The notes under the pieces are model-generated. The model was not told the origin of the DNA. It did no database searches and saw nothing but the letters and a program-made list of their open reading frames with translations. Both the position numbers and the translations under genes were made by a program. This document shows positions 5,052-23,030 of a stretch of 64,000 nt of DNA, one piece after another. The DNA lies in assembly GCF_021513135.1 (NCBI RefSeq), contig NZ_CP090981.1, positions 1,860,001 to 1,924,000 of the forward strand. The letters run 5' to 3'. This DNA comes from Vibrio sp. SS-MA-C1-2 (GTDB taxonomy: Bacteria > Pseudomonadota > Gammaproteobacteria > Enterobacterales > Vibrionaceae). Position 1 is the first letter of the stretch. Every line of letters begins with the position of its first letter.

Positions 5052-5830
5052 ATGAAAAAAAAATTACTTGCCGCCGCTATTCTATTAGCCTCGTCCACTT
5101 CTCCTGTCTATGCAGAATGGAAAGATCTTTCAGGTTCAATTTCAGATTTTGGTGACTCAGTCTCCGAAGGAGCAAAAGGGGCTTGGAAAAGCACGAAAGA
5201 GTTTTCAACTGAGACATGGCAAAGTTTTACGGATTGGGCTGATAGCGCGATCAATACCACTGGCGAGTGGACCGATGCCAGTGTAAAAAAAGTAAAGAGT
5301 GGATCGACAGTGCTGATAAAAAGATGGATGAGTTAATGAAAGGTGACACACCTGAAGAAGCACGAGAAGCCATCGATTTAATGGCAGATACTGCTTTAAT
5401 GAAGTTATTTAATGATAAAGCAGACACTAAGCAATTATATGATAAAGCCTATGGCTATGCAGTCTTTGATTCTCGTAAATTCTCACTTCTTTTAACCACT
5501 AATTCAGGTTCTGGTGTTGCGGTGGATAAAACAACAAAGAAGAGAACCTATATGGGAATGTTTGGTGCAGGTGCTTCTCTTGGTTTAGGTGGAAAGTTCT
5601 ATCAGCAAATTGTCTTTTTTGAAAATAAGAAAGATTTCGATACCTTTGTCACAGAAGGTTGGGAAGCATCAAGTGAAGCCTCTCTTGTCGCAGGGACAGA
5701 AGGGGAGGAGTTAGCGGCGGTATTTAATAATGGTATTGCAGTCTATCAGATCAACACCAAAGGACTGTTAGTTGATGCTAATATTACAGGTTCTAAATAT
5801 TGGGTGAACGAAGAGTTAACCGAGGGCTAA
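5052..5830 (+). pseudogene. SYLF-domain (YSC84-like) exported protein, interrupted by a -1 frameshift
   Basis: The 5' frame (5052-5336) encodes a signal peptide (MKKKLLAAAILLASS...VYA) and a WKSTKEFSTETWQSFTDWAD region. The 3' frame, to 5830, encodes the SYLF domain (AYGYAVFDSRKFSLLLTTNSGSGVAVD, GAGASLGLGGKF, GIAVYQI). The two join at an A7 run at 5285-5291; one more A gives a continuous protein of 259 residues. SYLF proteins bind lipids or sit in the periplasm with unclear roles. Either a base was lost from an A8 run, or ribosomes shift -1 on the slippery A-AAA-AAA. The downstream domain is otherwise intact, so decay would be recent. It could also be a sequencing error. Confidence 0.75.
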
Positions 5831-5874
5831 GAATAGTTTTTTAAATTGGATTCTGTTGATATTTTGATAATAAC

Positions 5875-5925
5875 AAAGCCTGAGTATAAATAACTATTTC
5901 TAGTTAAAAGCATACTCAGGCTTTA
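5875..5925. terminator. Bidirectional terminator between convergent genes
   Basis: AAAGCCTGAGTAT pairs with ATACTCAGGCTTT around a 25-base loop, with A- and T-rich flanks on both sides. It separates the rightward SYLF gene from the leftward dnaK. Confidence 0.85.
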
Positions 5926-5948
5926 TTTAATATTAAAGCTTATCCACT

Positions 5949-6091
5949 TATACCCGTCTTACTTGAAGCAGCTAGCTTCTTGGCTGTACGCGTTCGCCTA
6001 TCCCCTTCATACTTGAAGTCGCTAGGTTGTTGGCTTCACTCGTTCGCTCCAATCATATAGAAACCTATACTCATGGCGCCTCTGGGTATAT
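5949..6091 (-). repeat. ERIC-type repeat, composite of two partial copies
   Basis: A half copy (5949-5999, TATACCCGTCTTACTTGAAG ... CGTTCGCCTA) is followed directly by a second start of the same arm (CCCTTCATACTTGAAGTCGC) that runs into the centre and then jumps to the terminal GGGTATA. The right half is deleted. It lies just downstream of dnaK. Confidence 0.8.
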
Positions 6092-6109
6092 CTAAATGAG
6101 ATAAGGGTT

Positions 6110-8008
6110 TTACTTCATCTCTTCAAACTCAGCATCAATCACATCTTCATCTGACTTAGCGCCATTATTTGATCCTGTACTGTCACTTTGAGTGTTTTGA
6201 TTTGGTTGTGTTTGAGCTAACTTTTGAGCAGCCTTAGCCAATAATTCAACTTTTGCTTCAATATCAGCTTTGTTTTCACTGGTTTTAACCGCTTCAAGTG
6301 CTTTAATTGCATTCTCGATCTCTGCTTTATCTGTCGAAGACAATGTATCTCCAGTTTCTTCAATCTGCTTCGTCGTAGAGTGAATTAAGTGATCAGCTTG
6401 GTTTCGTATTGTCACTAACTCTTCAAATAACTTATCCGTTTCTTTGTTCGCTTCCGCTTCTTGTACCATTTGTTCAATTTCAGATTCAGTTAAGCCCCCT
6501 GAAGCTTGAATGGTAATCTTCTGCTCTTTGCCTGTGGTCTTATCTTTTGCGGTTACATTTAAGATACCATCAGCATCTAGATCAAATGAAACTTCAATTT
6601 GCGCCGTTCCACGCGGTGCTGCTTGTATACCTTCAAGGTTAAATTGCCCAAGTGACTTGTTGTAGGTCGCTTGTTTGCGTTCACCTTGTAACACATGAAT
6701 AGTCACGGCACTTTGGTTATCTTCAGCCGTTGAGAAAACCTGCTCAGCCTTGGTTGGAATCGTCGTATTCTTCTCAATCAGCTTAGTCATTACTCCCCCC
6801 ATGGTTTCGATACCAAAGGAGAGTGGCGTGACATCTAACAATAATACATCTTTTACATCACCAGCAAGAACAGCCCCTTGAACGGCGGCACCCATAGCAA
6901 CAGCTTCATCTGGGTTAACATCTTTACGTGGCTCTTGACCAAAGAATGCAGACATTTTTTCTTGAACCATCGGCATTCGAGTCTGACCACCGACAAGAAT
7001 AACATCAGTAATATCAGAGATTTGAAGATCAGCATCGGCAAGTGCAATTTTCAATGGTTCTAAAGAGCGATCAATTAAATCCTCAACTAAAGACTCTAAT
7101 TTTGCCCGAGTAACTTTAATGTTCAGGTGTTTAGGTCCAGTCGCATCTGCCGTCACATAAGGTAAATTGACATCCGTTTGCATCGCAGAAGAGAGCTCAA
7201 TTTTAGCTTTTTCAGCCGCTTCTTTAACGCGTTGCATCGCGAGTGGATCTTGCTTCAGATCAATGCCTTGCTCTGCTTTAAAAGTATCAATAAGGAAATT
7301 AATTAATCGATTATCGAAATCTTCACCGCCAAGGTGAGTATCACCATTTGTCGACAATACCTCGAATGTTTTATCACCTTCAACTTGATCGATCTCGATG
7401 ATCGAGATATCAAATGTTCCACCACCTAAATCATAAACAGCAATGGTACGTTCGCCATCTTGTTTATCTAAACCATAGGCAAGTGCTGCTGCTGTAGGTT
7501 CATTAATAATACGTTTAACTTCTAAACCTGCAATTCGTCCTGCATCTTTGGTTGCTTGGCGTTGTGCATCATTGAAGTAAGCAGGAACAGTAATGACGGC
7601 TTCAGACACGCTTTCGCCAAGAAACTCTTCTGCTGTCTTCTTCATTTTCTTTAAGATTTCAGCTGAAACTTGAGGTGCTGCCATTTTTTGACCTTTAGCT
7701 TCAACCCAAGCATCACCGTTATCCGCTTTGATAATATTGAATGGCATAATCTCAATATCACGCTGAACTTCTTTATCTTCGAAACGACGACCAATTAAAC
7801 GCTTAATTGCAAATAACGTATTTTCAGGGTTTGTGACAGCCTGACGTTTTGCTGGTTGACCGACAAGGGTTTCACCATCGGTATAAGCAATGACTGATGC
7901 AGTGGTACGTTCGCCTTCTGCATTTTCAATAACTCTAGGAGTGTCTCCATCTAATACAGAGACACATGAATTTGTTGTTCCTAAATCGATACCAATAATC
8001 TTACTCAT
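6110..8008 (-). CDS. dnaK: Hsp70 chaperone DnaK (second, ibpA-linked copy)
   Basis: A 632-residue full-length DnaK. The ATPase domain starts [12 protein letters not shown] and has the phosphate loop [13 protein letters not shown] and adenosine motif [11 protein letters not shown]; the substrate-binding domain has [14 protein letters not shown], and the lid is followed by a Q/N/S-rich tail ending [11 protein letters not shown]. It refolds and holds client proteins in the cytoplasm with a J-protein and GrpE. No dnaJ or grpE adjoins it; instead it lies 131 bases downstream of ibpA in the same direction. It is therefore probably a paralogue of the usual dnaK-dnaJ locus. Photobacterium profundum is annotated with two DnaK proteins (known from memory). 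IbpA holding clients for DnaK would explain the pairing. Confidence 0.93.
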
Positions 8009-8053
8009 AATATAAACCTTATTTTATTCATTATTTTTTCTAATGAACTTAAT

Positions 8054-8098
8054 GATGTCAGAGAGTGTGAGTGATATGTTTGAGAAACACACTCTGAT
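8054..8098 (-). other. Hairpin in the ibpA-dnaK spacer
   Basis: CAGAGTGTG and CACTCTCTG arms flank an 18-base loop. There is no T tract, so it is more likely an mRNA stability or processing hairpin, or a partial attenuator, between the two heat-shock genes than a full terminator. Confidence 0.45.
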
Positions 8099-8139
8099 AA
8101 TAATAAAAACGAAGTTGTATCCTTAGATAACAAGGGTAA

Positions 8140-13683: not shown

Positions 13684-14607
13684 ATGATTAAACGTAAGTT
13701 ATTAATATTGGCATGTCTTTTATTGCCATCATTAAGTTTTGCTAATAATTACTCAATTGGTACGGGTGGACAAAGTGGGATCTATTATCCCTTTGGTGGC
13801 GCATTAGCTAAAGTTTGGAGTGATAATATTCCTGACGTTAATGTGAAAGCTGAAGTCACTGCGGCCTCTGTCGAAAATACCATTAAAGTTGTTCGTGGGG
13901 ATATGATTGCTGGAATTGCAATGGGCAATGTCGTGCTTGATGCCTATGAAGGTAAAGGTAAATTTCCAAAGCCGATGCCAGTGAACACACTTTTTGCCCT
14001 TTATCCTAACTTAGTGCATGCGCTAACCCTAAAGGATTCAGGAATTACATCGTTAAACCAGCTAAAAGGTAAGCGCATTTCTTTAGGTGCCCCAGCAAGT
14101 GGTACAGCAGTGACATCTGCTGCGCTTCTTGAATCAATGGGAATCGATGTTAAAAATGATATTGACGCTGTTTACTTAAATTATTCTGAAACAACTAATG
14201 CATTAGCCAATGGTCAAATTGATGCTGGCTTTATTGTTGGTGGTCAAGGTGTTGGCGCTGTTTCACAAGTTGCACTAACTCATGATATTCGTATTCTTCC
14301 TGTTACCGCAGAAGAGAGCGCGAAGTTCATTAAGCAGTATCCTGCGTACAGTACTTATACTATCCCTGCTGATATTTATAATGGTGTTAGCCCAGTTAAT
14401 ACGATTAGTATCTGGAATGTCTTGGTTGTTAATCAAAAGATGACCGAAGACATGGCGTTTAATTTAACCAAAGCTGCATTTGAAAATATCGGCAACATTC
14501 AAAAAGTGGTTAAAATGGCAAATATGACAACGCCGGAGAATGCGACAAGATTACAAGGTGTACCTTTACACCCTGGAGCAAAAAAATACTTCGATTCAAT
14601 TAAATAA
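13684..14607 (+). CDS. TAXI-family TRAP transporter solute-binding protein
   Basis: 307 residues starting MIKRKLLILACLLLPSLSFA, a clear signal peptide, so periplasmic. The mature protein begins YSIGTGGQSGIYYPFGGALA, the TAXI N-terminal strand; LKGKRISLGAPASGTAVTS lines the ligand cleft, and PENATRLQGVPLHPGAKKYF ends the protein as in the family. AAAGGA seven bases before ATG 13684 decides the start over a TTG at 13663. It captures the substrate for the fused permease 55 bases downstream. TAXI ligands are mostly organic acids, such as alpha-ketoglutarate or glutamate; the ligand here is unknown. Confidence 0.92.
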   Translation: MIKRKLLILACLLLPSLSFANNYSIGTGGQSGIYYPFGGALAKVWSDNIPDVNVKAEVTAASVENTIKVVRGDMIAGIAMGNVVLDAYEGKGKFPKPMPVNTLFALYPNLVHALTLKDSGITSLNQLKGKRISLGAPASGTAVTSAALLESMGIDVKNDIDAVYLNYSETTNALANGQIDAGFIVGGQGVGAVSQVALTHDIRILPVTAEESAKFIKQYPAYSTYTIPADIYNGVSPVNTISIWNVLVVNQKMTEDMAFNLTKAAFENIGNIQKVVKMANMTTPENATRLQGVPLHPGAKKYFDSIK

Positions 14608-14662
14608 AATAATAATGATTATAGGTGGCTAATTTAGTCACCTTTCTTTTTAGGTGAACTCT

Positions 14663-16588
14663 ATGCCTCAAATTTCTGATTCTAATACCTCAGTTACTAA
14701 GAATAATAATAAAAAAGTTGATAAGAACATTTCACTATTTGGTCATTTCATCGCTTTTGTTGCTATCTGTTTATCCATATTTCAAATCTGGCAGGGGTTA
14801 CATTCTAGTATTTCTGCTACGTATTTTAGACCTATACATTTAAGTTGGGTACTGATCCTTATCTTCTTGCATACGCCATTAATAAAGAATTGTGAGCATA
14901 GATTATTTATTCCTGCACGACTATTCGATATATTTCTTTCATTAGTTGCACTGTTCTGTGCTTATCGGATGTATCATTTTGATTATAATGATATAGATTA
15001 TCTATTTTACGGTTTAAAGCCTGAAGATCTGTATGCAGGAACAGCATTAGTTATTCTACTTATGGAAGCATGTCGTCGTACCGTTGGCTGGATCATGGTT
15101 TTTATTTCTTTGCTATTTTTAAGTTACAGCGCATTTGGTGATTTATTACCAAGTGGAATAGCGATTAAAGCTTACTCATTTGAAGAGTTAATTCAATTTC
15201 AGATATTTTCTTCCAATGGTGTTTTTGGTTCTGCGTTAGGTATTGCCGCGACAACGGTGTTTATTTTTGTTCTATTTGGTGCATTTCTAGAAGTAACTGG
15301 TGCTGGTAAGTTCTTTATTGATCTCTCTTTTGCAATCGCTGGAAAATATCGAGGAGGTCCTGCAAAAGCGGCGGTCTTAGCATCAGCGGGTTTAGGTTCG
15401 ATTTCTGGATCAGCCATAGCCAATACCGTCACAACGGGGTCGATTACTATCCCAATGATGAAAAAGCTCGGATATAAACCAGAGCAAGCGGCTGGAATTG
15501 AAGCTGCTGCTTCTACAGGTGGGCAAATTATGCCACCAATAATGGGAGCCGGGGCGTTTGTGATGGCTCAATTTACAGGGTTGCCCTATAGCCAAATTAT
15601 GTTGGCTTCTATTGCGCCGGCCATTTTATACTTCTTTTGTACTATTTTTTACGTCCACCTTATGGCGTGTAAGCTGAATCTTAAAACGGTCAGCCGAACA
15701 CAAGCGACATGGGAAGTAATGAAAGAAGGCGCTCATCATCTTATCCCGCTGGTTATTATCACTTTACTATTAATGATCGGTTATTCGCCATTAATGGTTG
15801 GGATTATTGGTTGTGCAGCTATTATTATTACTAGCTTTTTGCGTAAAGAGAGCCGAATTAATATTCAACAGTTCTTTGAGGCATTAAAAAGTGGGGCATT
15901 AATGGCGCTTCCAATCTCTGCCGCTTGTGGGGCTGCTGGGATTATTGTTGGCGTGGTGGGACAAACTGGAATTGGTTTACAATTTACCCAGTTTGTAATG
16001 GATTTTTCTGGCGGTTCGATGTTTATCGCATTGCTATTAATCAGTTTAGTGGCATTAGTTTTAGGTATGGGTTTGCCTGTAACCGCAGCCTATATTGTTT
16101 TAGCTATCATGGTTGTTCCTATGTTGGGTGATTTTGGTTTACCGGTACTAACTGCTCACTTAATTGTATTTTGGTTATCTCAAACCTCTAATGTGACTCC
16201 ACCAATAGCACTTGCGGCCTTTGCAGGTGCAGGTGTTGCCAATGCAAACCCTGTTAAATCATCCATTGAAGCGTTTAAATTAGCGGGTGGGTTGTTTATT
16301 ATTCCAATTATGATGGCTTACACAGATTTGGTTGATTTTAATGCACCGTTACTTTCTTTCGTGATGGCAATTGCAGAAACCTTGGTCGTTATTATTGCGG
16401 TCGCGATTTCTGTCGAGGGCTTTTTTACTCGTAAAATTCCAATTATTACAAGGTTGGTTGTTTTTGCTGCGGTACCTTGGATATTATTGAGTCCTTTTGA
16501 TTTTGGATATTTAGGACTTGTTGTTATCGTGTTATTTATTATCAAAGAATTACGCGTATCTAAATCATTGGATAAAGTAGAACATTAA
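14663..16588 (+). CDS. TRAP transporter fused DctQM permease (TAXI type)
   Basis: 641 residues. The first ~150 carry four membrane helices (the small DctQ-like part); the remainder is the large DctM part with the duplicated motifs GKYRGGPAKAAVLASAGLGSISGSAIANTVTTGS and EAAASTGGQIMPPIMGAGAF, then GMGLPVTAAYIVLA and SQTSNVTPPIALAAFAGAG. These are the elevator-domain hairpins of TRAP permeases. It imports the ligand of the upstream binding protein by sodium symport. ATG 14663 is preferred because TAGGTG precedes it; GTG 14654 is the alternative. Downstream it meets a convergent MFS gene across a nested inverted repeat. Confidence 0.92.
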   Translation: MPQISDSNTSVTKNNNKKVDKNISLFGHFIAFVAICLSIFQIWQGLHSSISATYFRPIHLSWVLILIFLHTPLIKNCEHRLFIPARLFDIFLSLVALFCAYRMYHFDYNDIDYLFYGLKPEDLYAGTALVILLMEACRRTVGWIMVFISLLFLSYSAFGDLLPSGIAIKAYSFEELIQFQIFSSNGVFGSALGIAATTVFIFVLFGAFLEVTGAGKFFIDLSFAIAGKYRGGPAKAAVLASAGLGSISGSAIANTVTTGSITIPMMKKLGYKPEQAAGIEAAASTGGQIMPPIMGAGAFVMAQFTGLPYSQIMLASIAPAILYFFCTIFYVHLMACKLNLKTVSRTQATWEVMKEGAHHLIPLVIITLLLMIGYSPLMVGIIGCAAIIITSFLRKESRINIQQFFEALKSGALMALPISAACGAAGIIVGVVGQTGIGLQFTQFVMDFSGGSMFIALLLISLVALVLGMGLPVTAAYIVLAIMVVPMLGDFGLPVLTAHLIVFWLSQTSNVTPPIALAAFAGAGVANANPVKSSIEAFKLAGGLFIIPIMMAYTDLVDFNAPLLSFVMAIAETLVVIIAVAISVEGFFTRKIPIITRLVVFAAVPWILLSPFDFGYLGLVVIVLFIIKELRVSKSLDKVEH

Positions 16589-16677: not shown

Positions 16678-17879
16678 TTAACTATTTTGAGCTAAAGATG
16701 ATCGATATTGAATTGTTTTATGTAATTTAAATATCAATAAATACAAGATGAAATAAAAAACCACACCAACAGAGAAAACGCCAGCCCAATTGAAATGCTG
16801 CCAGCTAAATAACAGAATAAATCCCCCAACACTTCCTCCCATATAATAGTGGACTAGATAAAGTGCAGTAGCTGTCGCTTTTCCTTTTGTTGCATGACGA
16901 CCTACCCAAGAGTAGGCGAGCGCATGGACAAAAAACGTCCCTAAGCTCATTAATAATAAACCAATAAAAATGATAGCAAGGTGCTCATAAGCGGTAATCG
17001 CGAAACCTAAAAGAGAAAAACTTATTCCGACATTCATGCCTGATATTGGCGTGAAATAGCGGCACCATTTACCACTTAAAGTTGAACTAACGGTTCCAGC
17101 TAAATAGCAAAGAAATATCATAGAAAGCAAACCAATGGGTAAATTAAACGGTTCTAAAGAGAGACGAAACCCCATCACAGAATAAGTATTGATAAAAATG
17201 GCAAAGTTAACACCACCGATAAGCATCGCAACCCAAATAATAGGAGTAGAAAAGTGAGTCATTGCTTCACGATTATGGTGGCTAAGTCGGCTACGTTTTT
17301 GCGTGAAATTAAGCTGATTGGGTAAGTAATAAGCGACAAGTAACGCGCCAAATAACGTCAAAAAAGAGAGAATATAAAACGTCGTTTGCCAGTCATAGAA
17401 TTCTGTTAACCAACCACCGAATAATCGCCCAATAATCCCCCCTAATGAATTCGCGGCTATATATATTCCAATTGCCGTATGGAATGCCTCTTTGGATAAC
17501 TCTTCTGCCATGTATGCGACAGCAACAGAAATAAAAGCAGCAATGCCTATCCCTAATAAGATTCGAATGAAAATCATAAAAAAAGAGATTGAGTTTGAGT
17601 CAATAATAGGGTTAAAAATGGCAGCGAAATTAACCCTATCAACATGACTTTTTTACGTCCCATTGATTCAGAGGTGACAGCCCAAGGAACTAAACTGATG
17701 GCAATAGCAAATGTGGAGGCAACAAAAAGCCAATTAACTTGAGTTTCAGATACTTGAAGAATATTGCTTAATAAAGGAAGCATCGGTTGCATGCTATAAA
17801 GATTACAAAAAACCAGAAAAGACCCGAAGGCAAGAGATATTACAATTTGGTAGTACGCTTTACTATTTTCGGCAATCAT
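16678..17879 (-). pseudogene. MFS transporter split by a -1 frameshift
   Basis: The 5' frame (17879-17574) encodes the first three helices of a major facilitator (SFLVFCNLYSMQPMLPLLS; loop 2-3 motif SESMGRKKVMLIG); the 3' frame (17577-16678) supplies the other nine (motif GRLFGGWLTEFYDWQTTFY). Each alone is incomplete. They meet at a T7 run (17579-17585); an eighth T would join them into one protein of about 400 residues. The zero-frame codons TTT TTA TGA form T-TTT-TTA, a classical slippery heptamer, and the downstream ATG overlaps the stop as ATGA. It could be a mutation, programmed slippage, or a sequencing error. The substrate is unknown; YnfM-type drug or sugar efflux is the nearest resemblance. 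Confidence 0.78.
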
Positions 17880-19843: not shown

Positions 19844-20314
19844 TTAATTATTTTGAGAAATATACAGAATATCTTTATTTGAATCATTTAGTATCTGTTT
19901 AGCGACACTGTGGTGAATATGGAAGTGATGCTCAGATTGTCCCAAAATAATTAATGAGGCTTCAATCGAATTGGAAAACTCGATAATAGATTGAGCTATA
20001 TCACCATGTAAAACATGTATGTGTTCAATATCAAAATCGATATGGTCAAGAATCATCTGTTTTATCGCTTTATCACTCTCTTCTTTACTGACACTGCCTT
20101 CTAACTCGATATTGACTAAACTTTGAAGCTGAGGCCATGAGTCGTAAGCTACTGCACATAAGTAACCACTTTTTTCTGGGATAGAGTAAACAAGGTGTAG
20201 TTCAGCTGAGAAATTTTTAGCTAAAGCGACAGCTTGTTCGATAATATTCACGCTATTGAACTCAAAGACATTTATCGCAGCAACGATTTTATTATTATAT
20301 TTTGAAGTTGACAT
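19844..20314 (-). CDS. Universal stress protein, UspA family
   Basis: 156 residues, single Usp domain: KIVAAINVFEFNSVNIIEQAVALA at the N-terminus, then VLHGDIAQSIIEFSNSIEASLIILGQSEHH near the C-terminus. The usual nucleotide motif GxxGxxS is reduced here (ILGQSEHHFHIHHSVAKQIL), so ATP binding is uncertain. AAGAGAG precedes ATG 20314; an upstream in-frame ATG at 20377 would add an unlikely 21 residues. It diverges from a TRAP permease gene. In Halomonas a Usp protein (TeaD) regulates the TeaABC TRAP transporter, so a regulatory tie to the neighbouring TRAP system is a reasonable inference. Confidence 0.85.
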   Translation of the reverse strand: MSTSKYNNKIVAAINVFEFNSVNIIEQAVALAKNFSAELHLVYSIPEKSGYLCAVAYDSWPQLQSLVNIELEGSVSKEESDKAIKQMILDHIDFDIEHIHVLHGDIAQSIIEFSNSIEASLIILGQSEHHFHIHHSVAKQILNDSNKDILYISQNN

Positions 20315-20588
20315 AAAGTGCTCTCTTAAAGGCAGTAGATTATTTGTTTTACTGTTAGCTAATCTACCATCAAACAATCGCCTTAACCGATGATCAAATT
20401 TTTAAAATAAGTTTACATTTGTTGCTTAAAGAGTTGGCATCGGGTGAGATCGTAAGGTGACAAACAAATAAGCCATTGAATTTAATCATTCATATAATTG
20501 TTATCAACATCACTATTTTGCATTTTTGTCAAATATCATCGCATACTGTGTGTTGTATTTTCGCTGATTGTTAAAAGTAGATGTAACA

Positions 20589-23030
20589 ATGAAAGCAATA
20601 AAACAGTTTACTTATGGGGGAATTATCGCTGCTTCGATGTTAAGCGCTTCGGTAATGGCAAATGAAATGCCAACTAGCTTTACAGTAGGAACAGCTAGCC
20701 AAGGTGGGACTTACTTTACCTATGGTTCTGGTTGGGCAAATATGAACAAAGATTTTGTTTATGACGTCGTGAAAACAGTTATGGGGGACCATGACGATAT
20801 GATGAGAATTCATAAAGCAGCAAAATCTACTATTCCTGAGAACTATGTACATAACACTGCGATCAAGTGGCACCTCGGTGCGGTACAGTGGTTTGAAGAG
20901 AATGTTGATTCTGACATTATTATTGATAATCAACGTTTGTTGTCCAACTGGTCAAAAAAATTAGTTTTTATTGGTGCTATTTTTTATGCACTATTTCATA
21001 TTGTTGTTTTAAACCTTTATCCAATTGAGAGTTGGACTTATCGTATTTTGCATGTCATGGGAGCTTTAATTTTAGGTTATGCAATTTATAATGCCAAAAG
21101 TTTTAACTCAAAAACTGAGACAAATACTCAAAGCCATCATCAGTTAACTACGACCAATAAAGTTGCTAAATTTTTGGCTATTGTTGCAGTGGCATGTACC
21201 GCATTGTCTCTATTTAATGTCTTAAATATTTACTTATCATTACAAGATAAAATATACCCCAAACCTGATTATGAACTTTATTATTATGGTATTCCGCTTG
21301 TTGTTGGGACAATATTAGGGGTTATTAGTAGCTGGTTAGATAACGCTAAACGTAACAGTATTAATATGGCTGACATAGCATTAATTTTTGCTGTGGTTGC
21401 TAGTTCCAGCTATTTATTGGTTAATTTAGATACAACAGCATTACGAATGCGCGCTGGAACTAATTTTGTGACAATCGGTAATGTTTATGCAGCCTTAACA
21501 GGGATGCTACTGTTATTAGAGTTAACTCGTCGTTTAACAGGGAATGCACTCGTTGTTATTATTCTTGGTTTTATCGCTTATGGATTCTGTGGTCCTTATT
21601 TACCGAGCTTTTTAAGTCATAATGGTTTTCAGTTTAATCGATTCATTACTTACCTTTACACCGATAAAGGTATTTTAGGAACGACAACGGCGGTCTCTTC
21701 GACCTATATTATTTTGTTTATTATTTTTGCCGCTTTCTTACAGGTATCAAAAGTTGGGGAGTATTTTGTTAATTTCTCATTTGCACTTGCAGGTAAAGCA
21801 CGTGGTGGCCCAGCAAAAGTCGCTGTTTTTTCATCGGGTTTAATGGGGATGATTAATGGAACGAGTGCCGGGAATGTGGTTGCAACAGGCTCGTTAACTA
21901 TTCCATTGATGAAAAAAGTGGGCTATCGTCCAAAGATGGCAGCAAGTATCGAAGCTGCGGCATCAACTGGCGGACAAATTATGCCACCGATTATGGGTGC
22001 CGGCGCTTTCATTATGGCTGAGATCACTGGGATCCCTTATACAGAGATTGTGATTGCCGCATTAATTCCTGCGATTTTTTACTTCTTCTCTATCTACTTT
22101 ATGGTTGATATGGAAGCGGCAAGAGAGAATATGCATGGTATACCCAAAGATCAGTTACCGACTTTTGCTAAGGTATTTAGTCAAATTTATCTATTTATAC
22201 CTATTTTGATTTTAATATTATCGTTATTCTTTGGTTATTCAGTGATTCGCTCAGGAACATTAGCAATCGTTGCAGCAATTGTTGTAAGTTGGCTGACGCC
22301 TCATAAAGTTGGCTTAAATAAGATTATCCATGCGCTTAACTCTGCATCGGTGATGGCAGTTCAGATTATTATCGTTTGTGCAGCCGCAGGGATGATTGTG
22401 GGAAGTATTGCTTTAACTGGTGTTGGGGCACGCTTCTCTTCAATGTTACTGACAATTGCTGAGAATTCTCAAATTTTAGCTTTGTTTTTTGCGATGGTTA
22501 TTTCCATTATTTTGGGAATGGGAATGCCAACGACCGCGGCTTATGCCATTGCTGCATCTGTGGTTGCGCCAGGTTTGATTGATATCGGTATTACTCCGCT
22601 AACAGCACACTTCTTTGTGTTCTATTTTGCGGTTGTATCAGCCATTACTCCACCTGTAGCACTAGCAAGCTATGCTGCTGCAGGTATTGCTGGATCTAAC
22701 CCAATGGCAACCTCGATTCACTCCTTTAAAGTTGGTTTAACGGCATTTATTGTTCCGTTTATGGCTTATTTTAATCCAGCTGTATTGATGCAAGGAGATA
22801 TGGTTTCAATTGGTTATAGTTTTGCCTTAGGTCTGGTTGGTATCTATATTCTCATCGGTAGCTTACAAGGCTGGTTATTCGGTCGAATTAATAAAGCGAC
22901 ACGTATTGGATTTTTCTTTATTGCACTGGCATTAGTTTTAGGGATTGATTACTTAGAGCTAGTTGCTCTGGCAGTGAGTGTTGTCTTTATGGTGATGCAG
23001 CGCAAGAAAAATAATCTAGTTACTATTTAA
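20589..23030 (+). CDS. Fused TRAP permease carrying a gutted TAXI binding domain
   Basis: 813 residues. A signal peptide (MKAIKQFTYGGIIAASMLSASVMA) is followed by FTVGTASQGGTYFTYGSGWANM, the first strand of a TAXI binding protein, and then at once by DFVYDVVKTVMG ... HKAAKSTIPEN ... HLGAVQWFEENV, its last helices. Compared with the intact TAXI protein at 13684, about 208 central residues, including most of the ligand cleft, are missing in frame. The chain continues from residue ~115 into a complete fused DctQM permease (AGKARGGPAKVAVFSSG, EAAASTGGQIMPPIMGAGAF, GMGMPTTAAYAIAASVV, SAITPPVALASYAAAG). Binding function is surely lost; transport might use another binding protein. Such a binding-protein-permease fusion is itself unusual. 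It diverges from a Usp gene. Confidence 0.85.
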   Translation: MKAIKQFTYGGIIAASMLSASVMANEMPTSFTVGTASQGGTYFTYGSGWANMNKDFVYDVVKTVMGDHDDMMRIHKAAKSTIPENYVHNTAIKWHLGAVQWFEENVDSDIIIDNQRLLSNWSKKLVFIGAIFYALFHIVVLNLYPIESWTYRILHVMGALILGYAIYNAKSFNSKTETNTQSHHQLTTTNKVAKFLAIVAVACTALSLFNVLNIYLSLQDKIYPKPDYELYYYGIPLVVGTILGVISSWLDNAKRNSINMADIALIFAVVASSSYLLVNLDTTALRMRAGTNFVTIGNVYAALTGMLLLLELTRRLTGNALVVIILGFIAYGFCGPYLPSFLSHNGFQFNRFITYLYTDKGILGTTTAVSSTYIILFIIFAAFLQVSKVGEYFVNFSFALAGKARGGPAKVAVFSSGLMGMINGTSAGNVVATGSLTIPLMKKVGYRPKMAASIEAAASTGGQIMPPIMGAGAFIMAEITGIPYTEIVIAALIPAIFYFFSIYFMVDMEAARENMHGIPKDQLPTFAKVFSQIYLFIPILILILSLFFGYSVIRSGTLAIVAAIVVSWLTPHKVGLNKIIHALNSASVMAVQIIIVCAAAGMIVGSIALTGVGARFSSMLLTIAENSQILALFFAMVISIILGMGMPTTAAYAIAASVVAPGLIDIGITPLTAHFFVFYFAVVSAITPPVALASYAAAGIAGSNPMATSIHSFKVGLTAFIVPFMAYFNPAVLMQGDMVSIGYSFALGLVGIYILIGSLQGWLFGRINKATRIGFFFIALALVLGIDYLELVALAVSVVFMVMQRKKNNLVTI

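Follow-up and report, generated by a model that had tools for sequence, protein, structure and literature searches.

TRAP permeases take their substrate only from a P subunit (PMC10942642, as far as the available text goes), and their binding site is described as exposed to the periplasm only while they interact with the binding protein, with P subunits being specific to their permeases (available sections of PMC5812351). P subunits can be exchanged between the TRAP systems of H. influenzae and A. actinomycetemcomitans (PMC10942642, same part of the text), while more distant P subunits were non-functional upon exchange (available portions of PMC10942642 and PMC5812351). In TAXI systems, the membrane protein is stated to be invariably fused (PMC12344293, available part). 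The system VcGluP/VcGluQM of Vibrio cholerae (VC0430/VC0429; PDB 8S4J) belongs to this TAXI-TRAP family; both of its components are intact, and the model of VcGluQM includes a claw domain at the C-terminus (PMC11574862, in the part available to us). A TAXI domain at the N-terminus of a membrane transporter is known from the TAXI-GltS fusions of Lachnospiraceae, where the TAXI domain is present, the permease is of another family, and the protein is proposed to be functional (same part of PMC12344293). Within the open-access literature that we searched, we came across neither a DctQM permease fused to a TAXI or DctP protein nor a TRAP transporter described as SBP-independent, and the accessible portion of the Psychromonas paper describes no DctP-permease fusion.

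Here, we describe a TAXI-TRAP locus of Vibrio sp. SS-MA-C1-2 in which the remains of a binding protein with the fold of VcGluP are joined in frame to a complete permease. The window, the whole 64,000-nucleotide stretch of DNA that was analysed, belongs to a 4.33-Mb genome, assembled into 3 contigs, that is the sole representative of its genus in our comparison. On its forward strand, a single open frame runs from TTG 20568 or ATG 20589 to the stop codon at 23028-23030, comprising 813 amino acids when counted from the ATG, with no internal stop among its 813 codons. Its first 24 residues (20589..20660) make up the putative signal peptide that the TAXI binding protein once carried, as recognised from the sequence and from the alignment of orthologue N-termini, with a candidate cleavage site between VMA and NEM that was placed by eye on the same grounds. 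An N-terminal TAXI remnant follows (20661..20741, residues 25-51), which ends in PTSFTVGTASQGGTYFTYGSGWAN; in the alignment with 16 intact orthologous TAXI proteins, the retained segment runs to YGSGWAN at residue 51 and corresponds to the first strand. The C-terminal TAXI remnant (20742..20903, residues 52-105) retains about 50 residues, from DFVYDVV (residue 55) to FEEN (residue 105), and was found by the profiles NMT1_3 and TIGR02122 as well as by this alignment.

Profile searches delimited the two halves of the frame. Pfam NMT1_3 (TAXI fold, PF16868) covered residues 50-104 only and narrowly passed its cut-off (30.7 versus 27 bits), with the match confined to profile positions 233-287 of 289, and TRAP_TAXI TIGR02122 covered residues 51-105 only (profile 265-319 of 320) and reached 30.2 bits where its cut-off is 84.35, so that the frame does not score as a full-length TAXI domain. 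Against the TAXI protein of the same-family genome G158, the C-terminal remnant matched at E 8.6e-24. The permease (20904..23030, residues 106-813 plus the stop) matched TRAP_fused TIGR02123 over residues 197-808 with 621 bits against a cut-off of 320.65 (E 2.5e-186), covering profile positions 3-612 of 615 and thus qualifying as DctQM along its whole length; Pfam DctM (PF06808) matched residues 305-735 with 287 bits. Hence, profiles and the 16-orthologue alignment bear out the architecture given in a preliminary description of this DNA, namely one frame that encodes a signal peptide, the first TAXI strand, the C-terminal part of the binding protein and a complete DctQM permease. Promoter and terminator scans yielded about as many hits as in shuffled sequence.

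Upon searching 329 genomes of the family with the stub and the first permease helices, we obtained matches in 11 genomes. Besides the genome itself, two matched strongly (G158 and G177, both from one other genus of the family), and in 8 of the 11 the match was weak and limited to the TAXI C-terminus. A class-level sample of 369 genomes, limited to matches at E 1e-150 or better, added 7 further genomes with 8 close permeases. One of these loci (L055, genome G379) lies at a contig end where the permease appears to be cut, and one genome (G586; loci L054 and L056) holds two paralogous copies of the TAXI and DctQM pair. Eight plasmid records matched at a query coverage of at least 80%, of which we examined H1, H2, H3, H6, H7 and H10, with H4 and H5 outside this set; H10, at 36% identity to the G158 permease, was excluded as too distant and also has two separate genes. 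The resulting 16 orthologous loci comprise G158, G177, the 8 from the class sample, Roseicyclus mahoneyensis, which came from a scan of contigs of named genomes, and 5 plasmids, and in all 16 a TAXI gene (317-428 amino acids from the first start codon) lies directly 5' of a separate permease gene, across a spacer of 15-237 nucleotides.

The operons of G158 and G177 (L033 and L032) are the most similar, with permeases that are 66.8% and 65.8% identical to that of the fusion and TAXI segments that are 84.0% and 85.3% identical over the 75 retained TAXI columns; they differ in that the TAXI gene (317-318 amino acids) and the permease gene (713-721 amino acids) are separate and intact, 132 and 49 nucleotides apart. 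Roseicyclus mahoneyensis (L031) and the plasmids of Tateyamaria, Qingshengfaniella, Peteryoungia, Chelatococcus and Fuscovulum carry the same permease subfamily at 53-56% identity, yet each of these six systems has separate TAXI and DctQM genes.

Candidate fusions elsewhere did not hold up. A 1080-amino-acid open frame in G158 contains, at the DNA level, the TAXI stop and more stops before the permease start; a very long frame of 1244 amino acids in G1050 consists of two genes, with TAXI apart from the permease; and a frame of 546 amino acids in G848 likewise contains a TAXI gene that is apart from its permease. TAXI matches were present in 189 of 398 genomes of the phylum, and among the best ones, which are those listed, we saw no TAXI-permease fusion. 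The ancestral fusion of about 1000 residues that the preliminary description implied can hence be rejected, since the genes are separate in 16 of 16 orthologous loci and no fusion appears among the listed phylum matches. The same description had named separate genes in all relatives, together with an assembly artefact, as the outcome that would overturn its reading; the former is what we observe in all relatives examined, while nothing shows the latter.

As TAXI and permease are separate neighbouring genes in all 16 orthologous loci, two deletions occurred at the fusion locus. At the first junction (20739..20753), 212 residues in each of the two same-family orthologues are represented by 3 residues here, which amounts to a net loss of 209 codons, or 627 nucleotides, from the TAXI centre, where the figure of 212 is composed of 211 residues read from the sequence and 1 from the hand alignment at the junction. 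This matches the earlier estimate of about 208 missing binding-domain residues. At the second junction (20901..20909), the loss extends from the end of the TAXI gene, stop codon included, across the spacer into the first codons of the permease gene, and the frame is kept; by hand count, this deletion measures roughly 192 nucleotides relative to G158 and 118 relative to G177, an apparent size that depends on a spacer of variable length. The chance that both deletions kept the frame is about 1 in 9. No long direct repeat flanking the junctions was seen by eye in the orthologous DNA, and brief stretches of similar sequence around them (GCAAAT-like and GAAGA-like, noticed by eye) would fit slippage between very short repeats.

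The retained parts of the binding protein are well conserved. None of the 17 invariant columns in the stub is broken, and because the remnants are still 84-85% identical to the G158 and G177 proteins, the loss of the TAXI protein appears recent on the scale of the family. One mark of relaxation in the sequence is the change of HPGA to HLGA in the C-terminal remnant, at a proline that is kept in 15 of the 16 orthologues and is a lysine in the remaining one. Six ligand-site residues have been given for VcGluP (Y45, S75, Q93, E125, Y200 and M201, in the part of PMC11574862 at hand). When these were mapped by eye through the alignments, only the Y45 position fell into the retained segments and those of S75, Q93, E125, Y200 and M201 fell within the deleted part, so that the stub does not retain the ligand site. 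A structure prediction of the fusion from a five-row alignment (mean pLDDT 39.4, pTM 0.33) was uninformative for the stub.

The permease, by contrast with this truncated binding protein, is complete. It differs at 2 of the 222 columns that are invariant in the 16 orthologues, as compared to 0 to 11 when each of the other 16 was left out in turn, and all hydrophobic segments of its nearest orthologue recur in the fusion. In a crude hydropathy scan at a threshold of 1.5, we counted 17 segments in the fusion versus 16 for the permease of G158; the difference is due to residues 294-312, whose aligned counterpart in G158 has a lower score, and the likely second Q helix stays below the threshold in both (1.14 in the fusion and 1.13 in G158). 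In the Roseicyclus permease (L031, 6021-8573), about 100 residues are inserted between the first two Q helices, a position at which several orthologues have a shorter insertion. Overall, the alignment, the matched hydrophobic segments and the invariant columns uphold the view of a clean in-frame loss of the ligand cleft next to an intact permease. In the tree, the permease forms a fully supported group with G158 and G177, and its terminal branch measures 0.31, less than those of its sisters from the same node (0.57-0.61, that is, 0.51 plus 0.06 to 0.10), where the tree program flagged the letter make-up of the window row as unusual. Synonymous sites were saturated relative to G158 and G177 (pS 0.77 and 0.81), which left the dN/dS ratio unreadable. 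Judged from its sequence, the permease was thus under constraint during most of its history, and there is no sign of a long decay.

The fusion would also raise a conflict of topology. The C-terminus of DctQ is cytoplasmic and the N-terminus of DctM periplasmic (PMC5812351, in its available sections), and because DctQ ends in the cytoplasm and has four helices, the N-terminus of the permease is expected inside. The first membrane segment of the Q part (20961..21017, residues 125-143, from the hydropathy scan) is immediately preceded by R and K, and the alignment contains no inserted sequence between the stub and this helix; with no added sequence and with K/R before the first Q helix, nothing appears to have been acquired that reverses the topology. 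A Sec signal peptide followed by the stub would place the stub in the periplasm and reverse the first helix, so that a signal peptide ahead of a permease with a cytoplasmic N-terminus, and with no added helix, would be in conflict with this topology, unless the signal is ignored or translation starts further in. The best 19-residue hydropathy mean of the signal peptide is a moderate 1.16, versus 2.36 for the first Q helix, and downstream of the first remnant there are internal ATGs in frame, at residues 52, 65, 71 and 72.

We examined whether another binding protein in the genome could serve the permease, as the preliminary description had proposed. Apart from the fusion, three permeases of the genome match strongly, all above the TIGR02123 cut-off (598, 710 and 501 bits), and three intact TAXI proteins are encoded. 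One pair lies within the window, where an intact TAXI binding protein (13684..14607, forward strand; TIGR02122, 279 bits) is followed by its DctQM permease (14654..16588, forward strand; TIGR02123, 598 bits), and a second TAXI gene and permease lie together at locus L040. The third TAXI protein (L038), a closer relative of VcGluP at a locus other than that of the fusion, scores 470 bits to the VcGluP structure 8S4J and has no recognised permease beside it, and the third permease (L039) has argR and mdh as neighbours and no TAXI gene alongside. Although unlinked, these two are probably partners, a pairing drawn by homology: the V. cholerae genes for VcGluP and VcGluQM are direct neighbours and lie close to argR and mdh (PMC11574862, as far as seen in its available text). 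The likely counterparts here (L038 at 7159-8136, around 1524 kb of contig C2; L039 at 5306-7867, around 861-864 kb) are located some 660 kb apart, whereas the V. cholerae genes are adjacent.

No TAXI protein is left over, since the three intact ones are matched by the three other TAXI-type permeases; we thus found no unpaired TAXI gene that could be the cognate partner of the fusion, one of the pairings being by homology. This speaks against a binding protein encoded elsewhere. Moreover, a search of the genome with the G158 TAXI protein revealed no displaced TAXI centre, and the identity between the protein at 13684 and the G158 orthologue of the lost one amounts to only 26-28%. A 637-amino-acid permease on contig C1, with a weak match, was excluded from the TAXI type as it adjoins a DctP-type binding protein (recognised by eye). 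A DctM match containing a TAA (C2:1849594) was considered as a second broken permease and dropped, as the match seems by eye to overrun the normal end.

Directly beside the fusion, a divergent universal stress protein gene lies on the reverse strand (19844..20377, PF00582). UspA genes are known to occur next to TRAP transporters (PMC11574862, in the part available), and a universal stress protein gene is likewise found near the orthologous TAXI/permease pair of Tateyamaria. Further upstream, an MFS gene on the reverse strand (16678-17879) is split into two frames at a run of seven T, with the MFS_1 profile divided into positions 1-83 and 88-346, which reflects either a truly broken gene or a homopolymer read error.

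We consider it likely, with a probability of roughly two in three, that the fusion is a recently inactivated TAXI-TRAP uptake system in early decay. Its ancestor would have been an operon of two genes, the first for a periplasmic TAXI binding protein and the second for a DctQM permease. Through one deletion, the TAXI protein lost its two-lobed body, which binds the ligand; the other deletion took the TAXI tail, stop codon, spacer and start of the permease gene and by chance left a single frame. The product would have no transport activity, and the gene would be in early decay, with the recent date of the event explaining why the permease frame is still clean. We infer the lack of transport from the dependence of TRAP permeases on their binding protein and from the leftover signal peptide and stub, which are at odds with a cytoplasmic N-terminus. 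That an intact binding protein was lost recently is indicated by the conservation of the stub, which stands at the level of a binding protein, above that of the permease. Some observations run against decay: invariant columns of the permease are not changed more often than in its orthologues, and its branch is shorter than those of its sisters; a signal peptide of moderate hydrophobicity may not dictate the topology; and a frame that stayed open after both deletions also fits, weakly, a permease that is still translated, an argument of little weight because an out-of-frame case would have escaped notice as a fusion.

These same observations would be accommodated if the permease were still made and working, either free of an SBP or with the TAXI protein of another system (the nearest being that at 13684), and the stub were a passive leader. 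Translation might then start within the stub, at one of the four ATGs after the first remnant, or the signal peptide, being less hydrophobic than the first Q helix, might be ignored, leaving the stub in the cytoplasm and the topology normal. The complete and conserved frame, preserved through both deletions, and the exchange of P subunits between the H. influenzae and A. actinomycetemcomitans systems (PMC10942642, available text) agree with such an activity. We nevertheless regard it as unlikely, as substrate is accepted only from a P subunit and distant P subunits failed (PMC10942642 and PMC5812351, in their available parts), each intact TAXI protein of the genome has its own permease, the one at 13684 is far from the lost protein in sequence, and we found no open-access paper that joins 'TRAP transporter' and 'SBP-independent'. 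The stronger statement that this is a natural TRAP permease freed from its own binding protein, acting by itself or with a TAXI protein borrowed from another system and keeping the remnant as an N-terminal tail, seems to us less probable again.

An error of assembly or sequencing is improbable, even though the arrangement rests on one assembly of the single genome of its genus and the nearby MFS gene shifts frame at its seven-T run, possibly through a read error. The assembly has 3 contigs and is 100% complete and 3.64% contaminated; two clean losses (627 nucleotides net and, hand-counted, about 118-192 nucleotides) with the frame kept are atypical of homopolymer error, and the orthologous DNA showed by eye no long direct repeat at the junctions. 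Least credible of all is that the stub is under selection as a docking or gating domain of the permease. The in-frame fusion and the well-conserved remnants could be read that way, but this conservation is explained by their past in an intact TAXI protein; the remnants are two domain ends that have lost the centre on which they packed, a periplasmic position would probably invert the first permease helix, and the architecture occurs in no relative examined, neither in the 16 loci nor among the listed phylum matches. The suggestion that the stub has taken on a new job thus finds no support, given remnants with TAXI-like conservation and a P-to-L change in HPGA.

If the gene is dead, as the preferred reading of a recently inactivated uptake system would have it, the locus would offer a snapshot of how a TRAP transporter is lost, with the binding protein going first and the permease frame outliving it. 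If the permease works after all, it would contradict the rule that substrate is accepted from the P subunit only, and would be a natural starting point for studying this dependence.
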